Source: a virus
DNA: 22,437 nucleotides
Virus record (IMG/VR): IMGVR_UViG_3300043256_000172
Span: 1-22,437 of that record
Reading direction: 5' to 3' (one strand)
Shown here: piece by piece, positions 2,520-14,025 of the stretch
How positions within the stretch are numbered: position 1 is the stretch's first letter
Layout of the letters: every line of letters starts with the position of its first letter
Made by a program: the position numbers and the translations under genes
Notes under the pieces: generated by a model
Databases searched by the model: none
Seen by the model: only the letters and a program-made list of their open reading frames with translations
What the model was told of the DNA's origin: nothing

Positions 2520-2863
2520 GTCGTTCTCCTCGGTTCGTTGATCCCGCTCCAGTTCTTCTCCTGGCGCTTCCTGGCGCCGGCGCGGCGCTTCCTGGCCTTC
2601 GCCATGACCTCGGCCTGGGAGTCGCCCCAGATCGCCTCGGTCGTCGCGCCGTAGTGATTGCCGTCCCGCGTGTTATGCGTGAAGGCGACGAAGGGCTTCG
2701 GGTCCGAGCTCCAGATCGTCGCGTCGGGAGCCTCCTCCCAGGAGACACTCCGGACGTCGATCTCGTAGCCGACCCAGCGGCCCCAGCGATCGAGGAGATC
2801 GAAGCCCGTGACCTCGCGGTCGAGCCTCTCGGATCCCGTCGACTTCCACTTCTTGTCGTTCAT
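2516..2863 (-). CDS. Hypothetical protein, 115 aa
   Basis: Start ATG 2863 with GGAGG upstream, coupled by ATGA overlaps on both sides. The N-terminal part looks like a small beta-rich domain (RWGRWVGYEIDVRSVSW, then KPFVAFTHNTRDGNHYGA), followed by a very basic C-terminal helix (KARKRRAGARKRQEKNW) that could contact nucleic acid. Family unrecognised. It is conserved in operon position with the putative base-modification genes, but nothing in the sequence ties it to them functionally. Confidence 0.75.
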   Translation of the reverse strand: MNDKKWKSTGSERLDREVTGFDLLDRWGRWVGYEIDVRSVSWEEAPDATIWSSDPKPFVAFTHNTRDGNHYGATTEAIWGDSQAEVMAKARKRRAGARKRQEKNWSGINEPRRTT

Positions 2864-3111
2864 GATCGTCCTCCGTTCCAGTCACTAAGATCGACAACGT
2901 GCTCCAGGCGGAAGCCGCGGTCCTCGAGCTCGCGCTGGCGGGCCGGGACGTCCTTGTCGTTGTCTCTCGTCGGGTTCAACAACACCCAGGTCCGAGCGAT
3001 CCTGGGGATCGGGATCCCGTTCCGTTGCGGCGCTCTCGACCACAACTCGACGGGAACCTTGTCTCGGTTCGATTCAATCCGGGCGCGAACGCCCGCGTCT
3101 GTTTTCCTCAT
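2860..3111 (-). CDS. Hypothetical protein, 83 aa
   Basis: Start chosen at ATG 3111 because AAGGAGG lies just upstream and the ATG overlaps the stop of the previous gene. A longer in-frame extension to 3684 would run antisense through the TGT-like gene. The product (MRKTDAGVRARIESNRDK... ending DLSDWNGGRS) is polar and basic at the N-terminus, contains PIPRIARTWVLLNPTRDND, and has no obvious motif. Family unrecognised. Operon placement and the strong ribosome site support it as real. Confidence 0.75.
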   Translation of the reverse strand: MRKTDAGVRARIESNRDKVPVELWSRAPQRNGIPIPRIARTWVLLNPTRDNDKDVPARQRELEDRGFRLEHVVDLSDWNGGRS

Positions 3112-3317
3112 GTCGTTCCTCCTTCCTGCAAATTGCGAGCCGAGAGCACGAGCTCCCGGAACGGGTTCGGGCGCTTCCGTCCCTCGATCTTGTTCAAGTG
3201 GACCCAGATCCCGGCCCAGTATCCGAACATCGCGAACTTGTAGCGGCCCAGGGCGTCGACCGCCTTGTCCGCGGCCTCCTGGATCTCCTGGTCGAGCTTG
3301 CGTTCTTGTGTCGTCAT
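3108..3317 (-). CDS. Small hypothetical protein, 69 aa
   Basis: ATG at 3317 with AGGAGG upstream; the stop overlaps the next start (ATGA). The N-terminal half is a charged helix (RKLDQEIQEAADKAVDALGR), followed by an aromatic segment KFAMFGYWAGIWVHLNK. That segment may be a short amphipathic or membrane-associated helix, and a basic tail follows. Family unrecognised. It sits 15 bp after the TGT-like gene and is the first of five small genes downstream of it. Confidence 0.7.
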   Translation of the reverse strand: MTTQERKLDQEIQEAADKAVDALGRYKFAMFGYWAGIWVHLNKIEGRKRPNPFRELVLSARNLQEGGTT

Positions 3318-3332: not shown

Positions 3333-4142
3333 TCACAGATTCGGGCGCGCGGTCGGCGCCTGGTCGAAGTTCGAGATCTCGCTCGTGATCTCCTGGATGT
3401 CCGCCTGGTCCACGCCGGCGTCGACCTGGGCCTGGATCCGGCGCTTCATGAAGGCCGCCCGATCGTCGCCGTGTTCGGCCTTGTATCGGGAGTGATTGAC
3501 GGCGATGTTCGTCGAGTCGGCGCTCTCGAAGCGCGTGAGCTCGGCCAGGACACCGAGGCCCCTCATCAAGTGGATCCAGGGCCGGCGATTGAAGTCGCGC
3601 TCGACCTGGTCCAGGACATCCGAGGCTTCGCGGATCCGGGCCAGGTAGTCGGCGCGCTTCGTCTGGACGTCGAACTCGGCGCACGAGCCGAAGCCGACGA
3701 AGTTCATGAGCCGCGCCTGGGTCGCCAGGAAGTCGAGGCTCTCGTTCATGTGCCAGATCGACATCGTCCGCTCCGGGAAGTCGGCCAGGGCGCCGGCATC
3801 TTCGCGGATCGCCCAGGACATCTCGAGGAGGTTCTCGTGTTCGGATCCCTCGATGACGTCCGGGATCACGGCGACGGCTTGCGGGCTCCGAGCCTGGGCC
3901 GCGTTCGCCCAGGTCCAGAACTTGTCGCGGTCGATCGCGCCCTTGCCGCGCTTCCAGTTCGTGAAGGCGCCGTTGTCGAGGACCAGGATCTCGTCCTCGC
4001 CGACGAACTCGATCGCCCGGTCCAGGTCTCGAGGATCCGCGTGAGACACGCAGAACGACGAGCCGGCCAGGGAGGGGAAGAGCGCCTTCGGAGTCACCGG
4101 AGTCCCGACGACGATCCGGCGCTTGAAGCTCGCGGCGTTCAC
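3333..4142 (-). CDS. TGT-like / DpdA-superfamily protein (putative DNA base-exchange enzyme)
   Basis: 269 aa. The start is GTG 4142, whose GTGA overlaps the stop of the upstream PP-loop gene. Motifs in order: LVLDNGAFTNW (~54-63), VIPDVIEGSEHENL (92-105), IWHMNESLDFL (129-139), GFGSCAEF (150-157), RGLGVLAEL (194-202) and SADSTNIAVNH (207-217). The series DNGAF, PDV, W-H-x-x-E-S, G-S and S-x-D-S-T-N is that of phage proteins related to tRNA-guanine transglycosylases. Within that superfamily, DpdA enzymes insert 7-deazaguanines into DNA. The conserved aspartates (in PDV and ADST) are candidates for catalysis. No preQ0-synthesis genes are seen in the window, so the substrate would come from the host or be different. 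The fold call is fairly secure; DNA as substrate is inferred. Confidence 0.7.
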   Translation of the reverse strand: MNAASFKRRIVVGTPVTPKALFPSLAGSSFCVSHADPRDLDRAIEFVGEDEILVLDNGAFTNWKRGKGAIDRDKFWTWANAAQARSPQAVAVIPDVIEGSEHENLLEMSWAIREDAGALADFPERTMSIWHMNESLDFLATQARLMNFVGFGSCAEFDVQTKRADYLARIREASDVLDQVERDFNRRPWIHLMRGLGVLAELTRFESADSTNIAVNHSRYKAEHGDDRAAFMKRRIQAQVDAGVDQADIQEITSEISNFDQAPTARPNL

Positions 4143-5143
4143 GCGCAGCTCCGAAGGTCGGCCGCGTTCCCGCCGCTCAACTGGAGCTCGTTCGCGCGGC
4201 GAAGAAGAACCTCACGGTCGCCGCAGAACTCGCCGGTCTTCCGGTCGACGATCCCGTTCTCGCGCGCCCAGTGATTCCAGGCGAAGCTCCGACCGAGTCC
4301 GACCGTGATCTTCGTCGTCGGCCATTGGTCGGCCGGCTTGTTGACGAACTCGAGCCAGTCCTTGTCGAACGTACACTCGTCCGAAGTCCAGCGGCTATGC
4401 TTTCCGGTCATGGCGCGGAGCTCGATCTCGAGCGCCTTCATGAACAGATCCGGATGAGTTCCAGCGAGCCAGAAGAGCTCCCACTTCTGGGAGGCCGGGC
4501 AGAAAAAACACGCCGATTTGATCGGGACCTCGAGGCCTTCTTCGACGATCCGCTTGATGCAATCCTGGCGAGTCCAGCCGAGATCCTGGAGCGGGTACGA
4601 GTAGAGGAAGTCCACGTCCTCGCGCTTCACCTTCTTCGCGCGGCGGATGTCGGCCTTGCCGGAGTCGTAGCCGATGAGCTTGACGAGCTTCACGCCGGCA
4701 TCCTGGGAGCGGATCCACAACGGATCGGCGTCGCGCTTGTTCGGACCCTTCGAGACGCCCTTGAGGAACTGGTCCTGGGGTCCTTGCTTCCACTTGATCG
4801 AGCACGACTTCATCCCGAAGGCGAGGCTCGGGAGTGTCTCGTTGTCGTAGCAGTTCCCGCCGAGGTCGTTGTAGTCGGTCGTCGGGAGCGTCATCTTCTT
4901 GCAGACGGTCACGGTCGGGAAGCCCTGGGCCAGGAGCCAGACGTTCATCTTCTGGACTTGCTCATAGGTCTCCGGCTTCTCGGCGCCAGTGTCGGCGAAC
5001 GTGATGAGATCCGGGCGGATCCCCTGGTCTCTCATGGCGATCAACATCGCGGTCGAATCAACGCCGGCGCCGTAGCAGACAACGACGCCCGAGTTCGTCG
5101 GGAGGCGGATCTCGTTCTGGTCCTGGTTGTTGAAGTGGCTCAT
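4139..5143 (-). CDS. PP-loop ATPase, PAPS-reductase/DndC-like
   Basis: 334 aa, first gene of the minus-strand operon. ATG 5143 is chosen because AGGAG lies 8 nt upstream; the in-frame extension to 5212 has no ribosome site. Residues 24-33 (YGAGVDSTAM) are a variant PP-loop (SGGxDS), the signature of enzymes that adenylate a substrate with ATP. DTGAEKPETY (51-60), CSIKWKQGP (114-122), IGYDSGKADIRRAK (157-170) and CFFCPASQ (212-219) match phage and DndC-type members of the PAPS-reductase family. Cys114, Cys212 and Cys215 could ligate an Fe-S cluster, as in DndC. It is translationally coupled to the TGT-like gene, so the two probably act together, perhaps in base or sulfur modification. QueC is less likely: its C-terminal zinc cysteine set is absent. 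Confidence 0.85.
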   Translation of the reverse strand: MSHFNNQDQNEIRLPTNSGVVVCYGAGVDSTAMLIAMRDQGIRPDLITFADTGAEKPETYEQVQKMNVWLLAQGFPTVTVCKKMTLPTTDYNDLGGNCYDNETLPSLAFGMKSCSIKWKQGPQDQFLKGVSKGPNKRDADPLWIRSQDAGVKLVKLIGYDSGKADIRRAKKVKREDVDFLYSYPLQDLGWTRQDCIKRIVEEGLEVPIKSACFFCPASQKWELFWLAGTHPDLFMKALEIELRAMTGKHSRWTSDECTFDKDWLEFVNKPADQWPTTKITVGLGRSFAWNHWARENGIVDRKTGEFCGDREVLLRRANELQLSGGNAADLRSCA

Positions 5144-5331
5144 GTCGTGCTCCTGGTCGTTAGTAGTGCTGGATCGAGTGACGAGTGTCCCAGCTAAAGA
5201 GACGAAGAACAAGGCCTAAGTCACAGATTTAGAACAAAAAGATCCCCCAGAACCCCCGGATCGGCTGGAAGCCGCGCTGGCCCTAGCGTCCCGGCTCATG
5301 TTACTCTGGGAACCAGGACCCCCGAAGGAGA
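5144..5331. promoter_or_regulatory. Divergent control region between the minus- and plus-strand operons
   Basis: About 190 bp without a gene, separating divergently transcribed units. It holds the window's more AT-rich stretch (around 5215-5243). On the minus side, GGGACACTCG lies upstream of the PP-loop gene; on the plus side, GTTACT (5300-5305) is a -10-like hexamer upstream of the HTH gene. A 14-bp direct repeat, CCAGAACCCCCGGA (5247-5260) and CCAGGACCCCCGAA (5313-5326), has two mismatches and 66-bp spacing and could be an operator pair. Promoter positions are tentative. Confidence 0.45.
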
Positions 5332-5347
5332 TGTTCCACATGAAACA
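5332..5347 (+). other. parS-like site (one mismatch to the ParB consensus)
   Basis: TGTTCCACATGAAACA differs at a single base (central G replaced by A) from TGTTCCACGTGAAACA, the bacterial chromosomal partition site bound by ParB (consensus TGTTNCACGTGAAACA). The left half-site is a perfect match. The substituted base creates the ATG start codon of the HTH gene at 5340. No parA or parB gene is visible, so binding by host ParB, or use as an operator by the adjacent HTH protein, are the two readings. Confidence 0.55.
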
Positions 5348-5570
5348 CCCGACAAAACTCCGCCAGGCGCGCACGATTTCAGGCCTAACCGTCGAGGAAA
5401 TTTGTGACCGCGTCGGCTGTACTCGCCCGACTCTCTACCGCGTCGAGGAAGGCCTGGCGCTTCCGCGTCGGGAGCTCGCCCGCGAGCTCTTCAAGTTCTA
5501 CCGCGGCCGCGTTCCCCTGGCCGCGATCTACGACCCGCTATTCGCCGAGCAAGTCCGGAGCGTCGCGTGA
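5340..5570 (+). CDS. Cro/CI-type (XRE) helix-turn-helix regulator, 76 aa
   Basis: The start is ATG 5340, nine bases after AAGGAG; the in-frame ATG at 5331 abuts that ribosome site and is unlikely. The protein is little more than one HTH domain: KLRQARTISGLTVEEICDRV (helices 1-2), then GCTRPTLYRVEEGLALP (recognition helix and turn), the XRE pattern L-x-x-x-R-x-x-x-G-L-T-x-x-E...T-x-x-x-E-G. It is the first gene of the plus-strand operon facing the divergent operon, the usual place for an early-gene regulator. It may bind the repeats at 5247/5313 or the palindrome over its own start. Target sites are inferred. Confidence 0.88.
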   Translation: MKHPTKLRQARTISGLTVEEICDRVGCTRPTLYRVEEGLALPRRELARELFKFYRGRVPLAAIYDPLFAEQVRSVA

Positions 5571-7019: not shown

Positions 7020-7052
7020 TACACTGGCGGGGACACTTTGCAGGAGAACAAC

Positions 7053-8078
7053 ATGAACGAACCCCAGAAGGACGGCGAGCTCGTCGTCCTGGAGACGCCC
7101 GTCTCCGAACCGAAGAACACCCAGGCCCTCGCGGTCCGCTCGACCTTCGACATCGCGCCCCAGCAATTCGCCGCCGGCTTGAACCGTCGGAAGAAGAACC
7201 GGAAGGCGCTCATCTCCTGGATCCAGGAGGCGCTCGTCGAGGGCTCCGACTGGGGCCGGATCCACGTCGTCAAAAAGGATCAATGTCCGGACGGGAAATA
7301 CTGCCAGAACCCCTACCACTTCTCGAAGCCCTCGCTCTGGAAGCCTGGCGCCGAGAAGATCGCCGGCATGATGGGCCTCCGCTCCGCCTGGCCGAACCTC
7401 GCCAGCTACGAGGACCTCGTCCTCCAGGGGAAGGAGATCACCCAGCTCCTCCTCCGTTGCGAGCTCATCAACGACTCGGCCCTGGTCGTCTCGACTGGGA
7501 TCGGCGCGCGCGCCCTGGCCGCCGACTCCGGGGATCTCAACAAGGCCTTCAAGATGGCGAAGAAGTCCGCGCTCGTCGACGCCGTTCTCAACTGCGCCGG
7601 CTTGTCCGAGATCTTCACCCAGGACGTCGAGGACATGGATCCCGAGAAGATCTCGAGCGGCGCCCAGGATCCGTTCAACCCGACCGCCGAGCCGACCGCG
7701 CAACACTTCCCGACCAGGAACCAGAAGCCCGTCGCGACTCATTGCCCGATCGGCAAGGAGTGGAAGGGCCAGCCCTGGGAGCTCGTCGACGAGGGCTTCA
7801 TCGACTGGATCATCGAGAGGATCGACGACAAGCCCGACCTCCTCGAGGCCGCGAAGAAGGAGAAGATCCGCCGCTATCCGGAGGACGCGAACGCCGTGAA
7901 CGAGCGGGCCGCGACCAGGCTCTCGAACGGGAAGACGCTCGCCGACTTCGCTCGAGAGATCGGGGACGCGACGAACATCGACCAGATCCAGGTCATCAAG
8001 GACGAGCTCCCGGCCGACTACGAGCCAGGGCTCCGGACCTACATCGCCAGCCGTGAAGAACAACTCGGTCCGCGGTAG
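7053..8078 (+). CDS. Candidate Rad52-like single-strand annealing protein with ExoX-type C-terminal module
   Basis: 341 aa. The ATG at 7053 follows CAGGAGAACAAC, and TACACT (7020-7025) is a possible -10. Residues 97-103 (KPGAEKI) and 172-190 (SALVDAVLNCAGLSEIFTQ), followed by DVED, match a phage family resembling Rad52/Sak-type annealing proteins. The middle contains GIGARALAADSGDLNKAFKM. The C-terminal part, IGKEWKGQPWELVDEGFIDW (233-252), resembles the small domain at the end of exonuclease-X-like proteins (G-K-x-x-G-K-P-W-x-x-V...Y-x-x-W). The protein would anneal single strands during recombination or replication. A partner exonuclease is not obvious nearby. Family placement is from memory of motifs and only moderately sure. 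Confidence 0.55.
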   Translation: MNEPQKDGELVVLETPVSEPKNTQALAVRSTFDIAPQQFAAGLNRRKKNRKALISWIQEALVEGSDWGRIHVVKKDQCPDGKYCQNPYHFSKPSLWKPGAEKIAGMMGLRSAWPNLASYEDLVLQGKEITQLLLRCELINDSALVVSTGIGARALAADSGDLNKAFKMAKKSALVDAVLNCAGLSEIFTQDVEDMDPEKISSGAQDPFNPTAEPTAQHFPTRNQKPVATHCPIGKEWKGQPWELVDEGFIDWIIERIDDKPDLLEAAKKEKIRRYPEDANAVNERAATRLSNGKTLADFAREIGDATNIDQIQVIKDELPADYEPGLRTYIASREEQLGPR

Positions 8079-13391: not shown

Positions 13392-13488
13392 GCGGGGCCG
13401 GAAGGTATGGCGGCAAGCGGAGCGGCGCCTCGGTCAATCCCGAGATCGTCGTCACCGCGGCCTGGAGCCGCCGGTCTCGCCTTCCCGC

Positions 13489-13775
13489 AAAAGTCCCGAG
13501 TTTGAGATGGCCGCCGGCTACATTTTCCGAGGGCCTCCGAAAAAGTGGTTTCTCGTGTAATTACAAATAAAAGCCGAGTTTGACGGCCGAGAAAATTGTA
13601 TTTTCCGAGGGCCTCCGAAACTTCGGTTTCTTCTGTAATCATAAATAAAAGCCGAGTTTGAGATCGCCGGCGCGAATTAAATCTCGAGGCCTCCGAACTC
13701 GGCCCGAACGGACAAGTCGCGAAAAAGTCCCGAGTTTGAGCTCGCCCCGAAATAGAACGACCCCTGGAGGCCCCG
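13489..13775. repeat. Tandem imperfect repeat array A, ~78-bp period, four copies
   Basis: The box AAAAG(TC)CCGAGTTTGA occurs at 13489, 13569, 13647 and 13723, spacings of 80, 78 and 76 bp. Between the boxes GGCCTCCGAA recurs at 13532, 13610 and 13688, exactly 78 bp apart. The middle copies also share TGTAAT..A.AAATAAAAG. Plus-strand stop codons interrupt all coding. Because the period is a multiple of three, minus-strand frames stay open as 26-residue repeats, but no start or ribosome site supports a gene. Function unknown; cis-acting DNA or structured RNA is likely. Confidence 0.85.
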
Positions 13776-13798
13776 CCCAGCAACGGTTCCAGCGTCTA

Positions 13799-14000
13799 CA
13801 ACCACTTCGAGCAAGTTCGCCGGCCCAGGAGCTCCAAAACTCGGACCCCCGTCCGCGGACCAGGTCCTCGAGGCCTTCAACCACTTCGGCCAGTTTCGCC
13901 GGCCTGGAGGCCCAAAAACTCGACCCCCTTCCCAGGGAGGCGGATCCGCGGGCTCTTAATCGTTCGGAGCAAGTTCGAGCTCCAGGAGGCCCAAAAACTC
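13799..14000. repeat. Imperfect repeat array B, ~78-bp period, three copies
   Basis: GGAG(C/G)(T/C)CCAAAA(A)CTCG occurs at 13828, 13906 and 13985, spacings of 78 and 79 bp. The first two copies are also preceded by CAACCACTTCG..CA.TTCGCCGGCC (13799, 13878); the third is preceded by a variant, CGTTCGGAGCAAGTTCGAGC. The CAAAACTCGG core is roughly the reverse complement of the CCGAGTTTGA box of array A, so the two arrays may be inverted relatives. No coding potential on the plus strand is convincing. Confidence 0.75.
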
Positions 14001-14025
14001 GAGGCCCTCTCGTCTCGCCGGATGT

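Follow-up and report, generated by a model that had tools for sequence, protein, structure and literature searches.

Does an operon headed by a PP-loop gene and a gene for a protein resembling tRNA-guanine transglycosylases (TGTs) encode one DNA-modification pathway, or two enzymes that happen to travel together? We examined this pair in a tailed-phage genome fragment of 22,437 bp (hereafter, the window), whose plus strand carries terminase, portal, head morphogenesis, and scaffold genes.

Operon layout and borders

The two genes head a seven-gene operon on the minus strand. The first (4139-5143, minus strand) reads from an ATG at 5143 to 4139, is preceded by AGGAG, and encodes a 334-aa PP-loop (N-type ATP pyrophosphatase) protein that is SspD/PAPS-reductase-like. 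The second (3333-4142, minus strand) reads from a GTG at 4142 to 3333 and encodes the 269-aa TGT-like protein. Stop and start overlap in the four nucleotides GTGA (4139-4142, minus strand; junction sequence GCGTGAAC), and the same overlap is present in the related contig L010. Five small predicted ORFs follow on the same strand: a conserved 69-aa ORF (3108-3317) after a 15-nt gap, ORFs of 83 aa (2860-3111), 115 aa (2516-2863; 78-83% identity in L005 and L006), and 76 aa (2289-2519), and, as the last gene, a 121-aa CxxCxGxG zinc-finger-like protein (1927-2292) whose match to BSD2/DnaJ cysteine-rich domains is weak and below cut-off. Except for the 69-aa ORF, each is joined to the gene before it by an ATGA overlap. 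The operon is closed by an intrinsic-terminator-like hairpin (1853-1824, minus strand; 12 pairs, 10 of them G-C) with a T run after it, and a divergent HTH regulator (HTH_31/HTH_3; Pfam HTH_31, 1.8e-9) lies beside its head on the plus strand (5298-5570). The directly read junction, its recurrence in L010, and the hairpin thus bear out the two reading frames and the single operon described in the first-pass annotation, and the overlaps and the short gap agree with its five small coupled genes.

In both enzyme genes, dN is far below dS (0.08/0.27 for the TGT-like gene versus L003; 0.07/0.32 for the PP-loop gene versus L010), and identity to relatives is 73-86% for the TGT-like protein and 91% for the PP-loop protein. 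The suggestion that the small genes might be accessory factors did not hold for the PP-loop gene. Relatives of the 69-aa ORF occur at seven related loci (68-72% identity), all of which lack the PP-loop gene at 4139-5143; because the small genes mostly recur in such PP-loop-less relatives, we rejected a specific role for them beside the PP-loop enzyme.

Elsewhere in the window, a stretch with little convincing coding sequence (13483-14001) contains degenerate direct repeats with a spacing of 78-79 bp that are 71-87% alike (e.g., 13522/13600 and 13809/13888/13967); an Rfam search of this stretch gave no match.

A short DpdA-like protein and its probable source of 7-deazaguanine

The protein encoded at 3333-4142 matches phrog_887, annotated as queuine tRNA-ribosyltransferase (E=6e-19), and so do all 40 of its aligned relatives. 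A profile built from 40 relatives aligned with DpdA of Enterobacteria phage 9g, which inserts preQ0 into DNA (PMC6884629), at an hhalign Prob of 96.2 (E 2.3e-9); the alignment runs through LDNGAF/LDSGAF, IWHMNES/CFHAGEP, and ADST/CDSS, and the corresponding HMM scores 9g DpdA at 35.5 bits. Neither hhalign with the profile nor the HMM gave a significant match to E. coli Tgt, which is too distant to serve as a yardstick for this protein. Pfam and NCBIfam returned no match for it, and phmmer against solved structures returned none for it or for the PP-loop protein, so that profiles were needed. Eight residues are invariant in the 40 sequences (D56, P94, D95, W130, H131, H191, R194, and D209); D56, H131, and D209 align with 9g DpdA, and their equivalence to characterised residues is by alignment alone.

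AlphaFold2 predicted a TIM barrel with good confidence (pLDDT 88.3, pTM 0.87). Several of its best matches in a library of predicted viral structures are phage queuine tRNA-ribosyltransferases (TM 0.5-0.6), whereas among solved structures the TM of 0.49-0.51 to TGT is little above that of unrelated TIM barrels. Structure prediction, which had been proposed as a check on the fold, therefore gave a confident barrel with phage TGT neighbours but barely favoured TGT over other barrels among solved structures, and for this reason we relied on the sequence profiles and the viral library. Together these support the earlier DpdA-like assignment, and we classify the protein, from its sequence relationships, as a putative short DpdA-type transglycosylase. 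Identity as a bacterial Tgt (tRNA-guanine transglycosylase) was rejected on the lack of a significant match to E. coli Tgt and of a zinc site.

The PHROG annotation itself suggests another substrate: the TGT-like protein might act on host or phage tRNA and tune translation, with the PP-loop protein as a tRNA thiolase, and the predicted PP-loop fold is indeed similar to the tRNA thiolase NcsA and the sulfurtransferase TtuA. We regard this as quite unlikely, as the TGT-like protein resembles 9g DpdA, which acts on DNA, more closely than it does E. coli Tgt, no C-terminal Cys/His zinc site is invariant among the 40 sequences, its relatives cluster with DNA C5-methyltransferases, and the window has no tRNA gene.

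Which base would such an enzyme insert? We surveyed 133 distinct relatives from viral contigs, phages, and bacterial genomes; they are the best-matching part of a larger set, and shares among them are not population frequencies. Among these listed matches, 41 of the 133 TGT-like genes are accompanied within 500 bp by a same-strand YhhQ/VUT gene that usually overlaps them, and beyond that distance YhhQ was found at one locus at 500-1500 bp and at none further out to 10 kb. Other listed relatives neighbour QueE and QueD, including a short QueD-like ORF. Pfam and NCBIfam confirm the identities of the YhhQ, QueD, and QueE neighbours, and pairs of the TGT-like gene with YhhQ occur in Pseudanabaena phage Pam5 and Rhizobium phage RHph_N3_2. 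In E. coli, YhhQ transports preQ0 (cited in PMC6884629). The linkage of the family to YhhQ and to QueD/QueE points to a 7-deazaguanine as its likely base.

Several individual loci illustrate the range of arrangements. Two related viral contigs (L012:474-2307 and L014:1498-3187) have QueE and QueD after a TGT-like gene, which makes up part of a 7-deazaguanine pathway; no QueC or FolE was found at either locus. At L057:9079-13181, the succession is QueE, a 105-aa QueD-like ORF, a TGT-like gene, an ORF resembling helicases, and a PAPS-reductase-like gene. L051, L067, L096, and L101 have the short QueD-like form as well. Salmonella phage BTP1 (NC_042346; L032:5986-6741) carries a member of this short TGT family in its early region among eaE, ead/Ea22-like, and eaA genes, and the stretch read contains no transporter or preQ0 gene near it.

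In the family tree, the window falls in a supported clade of 19 TGT-like sequences, none of which has a YhhQ, QueD, or QueE neighbour. Searches of the window, which covers only part of its phage, and of related contigs of up to 44.8 kb for QueC (PF06508), PTPS/QueD, radical-SAM/QueE, FolE, and YhhQ found none of them, in keeping with the earlier remark that the usual preQ0 gene set is absent from the window. For this clade, preQ0 would thus have to come from the host, and the substrate is inferred from relatives that are 30-36% identical. Host preQ0 has likewise been suggested as what the third, "DpdA only" group of phages may depend on (Hutinet 2019, PMC6884629).

The PP-loop protein and the slot before the TGT-like gene

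The protein encoded at 4139-5143 matches phrog_424, annotated as PAPS reductase (E=7e-27), and SspD in PADLOC (5e-15). A profile built from 34 sequences of its family identified "PptA" of Vibrio phage vB_VhaP_VH-5 (PDB: 21fy, 1.5e-22). G27, S30, C114, K119, C212, and C215 are invariant in the 34 sequences, and the three cysteines would fit a three-Cys cluster. The fold of the model (pLDDT 87.5) resembles those of [4Fe-4S] LarE, TtuA, and PAPS reductase. These matches agree with the SspD/DndC-like character first proposed for the protein, and by homology we place it in the SspD/"PptA" branch of PAPS-reductase-like enzymes. A literature search found no published function of PptA.

Could it be an ordinary metabolic PAPS reductase (CysH) that boosts host sulfur assimilation and has no role in DNA? 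Phage genes of this type are commonly annotated as PAPS reductase, but all Pfam and NCBIfam matches of the protein are sub-threshold (PAPS_reduct, 14.3 bits versus a cut-off of 22.5), E. coli CysH aligned over 31 columns only, and SspD and PptA match it far better; we rejected CysH as its identity and give this explanation very little weight. Similarly far-fetched is the idea that the protein stands in for QueC, or for a PP-loop step of the amidase type, in the synthesis of the 7-deazaguanine used by the TGT-like enzyme. QueC is itself a PP-loop enzyme, and QueC was not found on the L057 locus, which has QueE, the short QueD-like protein, the TGT-like gene, and the PAPS-reductase-like gene. 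Against this, the profile overlaps QueC at the loop only (hhalign Prob 23), its best match being SspD/PptA, and PF06508 is not in the window, so that QueC was rejected as a candidate identity; moreover, the window has no QueD, QueE, or FolE, so that any CDG to be converted would have to be supplied by the host.

In known systems, SspD and DndC do not act alone but together with other partners (PMC12707154). A PADLOC scan of the operon's small genes and their neighbours found no DndD/DndE or SspB/SspC partner, and a complete Dnd or Ssp phosphorothioation system was rejected for the window genes scanned.

The gene before the TGT-like gene varies among the nearest relatives. Seven of the eight contigs L003-L010 keep the TGT-like gene but not the window's PP-loop gene. 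L003 and L004, whose query matches are identical, have a C5-methyltransferase-like gene in the slot; L005-L008 have neither a PP-loop nor a methyltransferase-like gene there; and L009 has the tail of a different PP-loop gene at the contig end. L010, the only nearest relative that carries the PP-loop gene, encodes two different PP-loop genes before its TGT-like gene (L010:2992-6346), one DndC-like and one like that of the window. We conclude that the slot probably takes exchangeable modification genes.

Across the 133 loci listed, PAPS-reductase-like genes occur at 0.086 per kb within 500 bp of the TGT-like gene, all on its strand, and at 0.002-0.003 per kb at 3-8 kb. C5-methyltransferase genes reach the same 0.086 per kb within 500 bp, and both kinds of gene fall to 0.002-0.004 per kb at 5-8 kb. 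The two kinds lie near the same TGT-like gene more often than expected (Fisher p 0.005, loci listed). As a control, the gene at 7047-8078 served as a neutral marker but yielded only two further loci, and the PP-loop background was therefore taken from distance within loci. In two acidobacterial genomes (Granulicella and Silvibacterium; L208:7986-10516 and L209), a PAPS-reductase-like gene adjoins a TGT-like gene of the same family, and in L208 a cytosine-methylase-like ORF follows the pair.

These counts bear on a joint pathway, in which the PP-loop enzyme would adenylate a 7-deazaguanine or the inserted base and add sulfur, and the DpdA-type enzyme would insert the base, giving a sulfur-bearing 7-deazaguanine or a similar hypermodified base. 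Such a pathway would account for the concentration of PP-loop genes beside TGT-like genes (among the 133 loci listed, 17 same-strand PP-loop genes lie within 1.5 kb and 2 lie farther than 3 kb away), the translational coupling in the window and L010, and the enrichment in the window's subclade, where 5 of 10 members have a PP-loop gene within 3 kb versus 14 of 123 others (p 0.006, or 0.02 without the window; relatives listed); the predicted PP-loop fold, resembling [4Fe-4S] sulfurtransferases, would suit it as well. However, C5-methyltransferase genes are equally concentrated beside TGT-like genes, which points to a cluster of modification genes and not to a dedicated pair. Sister phages keep the TGT-like gene without the window's PP-loop gene, a TGT-like gene is present at 4 of the 46 loci fetched with the PP-loop profile (42 show none, some of the loci being fragments), and the paired PP-loop genes belong to different subfamilies (DndC-like in L010, SspD-like in the window). 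We therefore consider a joint pathway unlikely, and its specific form, a two-gene route by which a PP-loop enzyme that transfers sulfur and a DpdA-type transglycosylase would jointly use host preQ0 to give DNA a sulfur-containing 7-deazaguanine, quite improbable. A literature search turned up no paper that links phage phosphoadenosine phosphosulfate reductase to queuine tRNA-ribosyltransferase.

The proposal that the two genes form a compact DNA-modification system thus stands in part: they share one operon and belong to clustered modification genes, but a joint pathway is unlikely, and most near sisters keep the TGT-like gene without this PP-loop gene. The co-occurrence survey proposed with it was equally two-sided, in that the PP-loop genes are concentrated beside TGT-like genes but so are C5-methyltransferases, and most loci fetched with the PP-loop profile show no TGT.

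A proposed modular DNA-modification operon and known systems

The reading we prefer, at a probability of roughly 55%, is a modular anti-restriction operon of a tailed phage with two separable DNA-modification enzymes: the TGT-like enzyme would insert a host 7-deazaguanine, and the PP-loop enzyme would make a sulfur mark. In this model, the active-site Asp of the 3333-4142 protein would displace a guanine of the phage DNA, which would be replaced by a 7-deazaguanine (most likely preQ0). The window's clade would draw this base from the host, unlike relatives with an adjacent YhhQ or QueD/QueE. The 4139-5143 protein would act separately: as an SspD/PptA-type PP-loop sulfurtransferase, probably of the Fe-S kind, it would place a second, sulfur-based mark on DNA. 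We propose that the two genes are co-transcribed and co-translated because this position is one where phages gather interchangeable modification genes, and the repeated clustering of their relatives with other DNA-modification genes probably serves to hide phage DNA from restriction enzymes.

A 2019 survey could not predict the modification status of 76 "DpdA-only" phages and found YhhQ to correlate with no phage group (PMC6884629). In many members of the short DpdA-like family described here, the gene is tightly coupled to YhhQ or QueD/QueE; this coupling predicts a 7-deazaguanine substrate derived from the host or environment and makes modification status testable. That SspD/DndC-like and C5-methyltransferase genes recur beside TGT-like genes suggests that phages combine DNA marks of different chemistry within a single operon, and the PAPS-reductase-like genes of phages, which are usually assigned to sulfur metabolism, would gain a role in DNA modification.

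Among known systems, phage DpdA of the 9g type resembles the window's TGT-like protein in fold and in the aligned LD(N/S)GAF, F/WH, and (A/C)DS motifs, but the two differ in length (269 versus 317 aa in 9g DpdA) and share about 21% identity, the window's protein belongs to its own clade of 19, and its modification is predicted only. Like the window's clade, the third, "DpdA only" group (PMC6884629) lacks phage-encoded preQ0 genes. The DpdA-like and YhhQ pairs of Pam5 and RHph_N3_2 belong to the same TGT family (about 35% identical), but these phages carry the VUT/DUF165 transporter immediately or one gene downstream, which the window's clade does not. With the phosphorothioation sulfurtransferases SspD, DndC, and BrxP, the PP-loop protein shares the PP-loop, conserved cysteines, and the match to the SspD HMM, whereas its gene is phage-borne, coupled to a TGT-like gene, and without SspB/SspC or DndD/DndE among the genes scanned. 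Although the stretch read around PptA of vB_VhaP_VH-5 has no TGT, unlike the window, PptA (PDB: 21fy) is the best sequence match to the window's PP-loop protein among solved structures, with the cysteines aligned.
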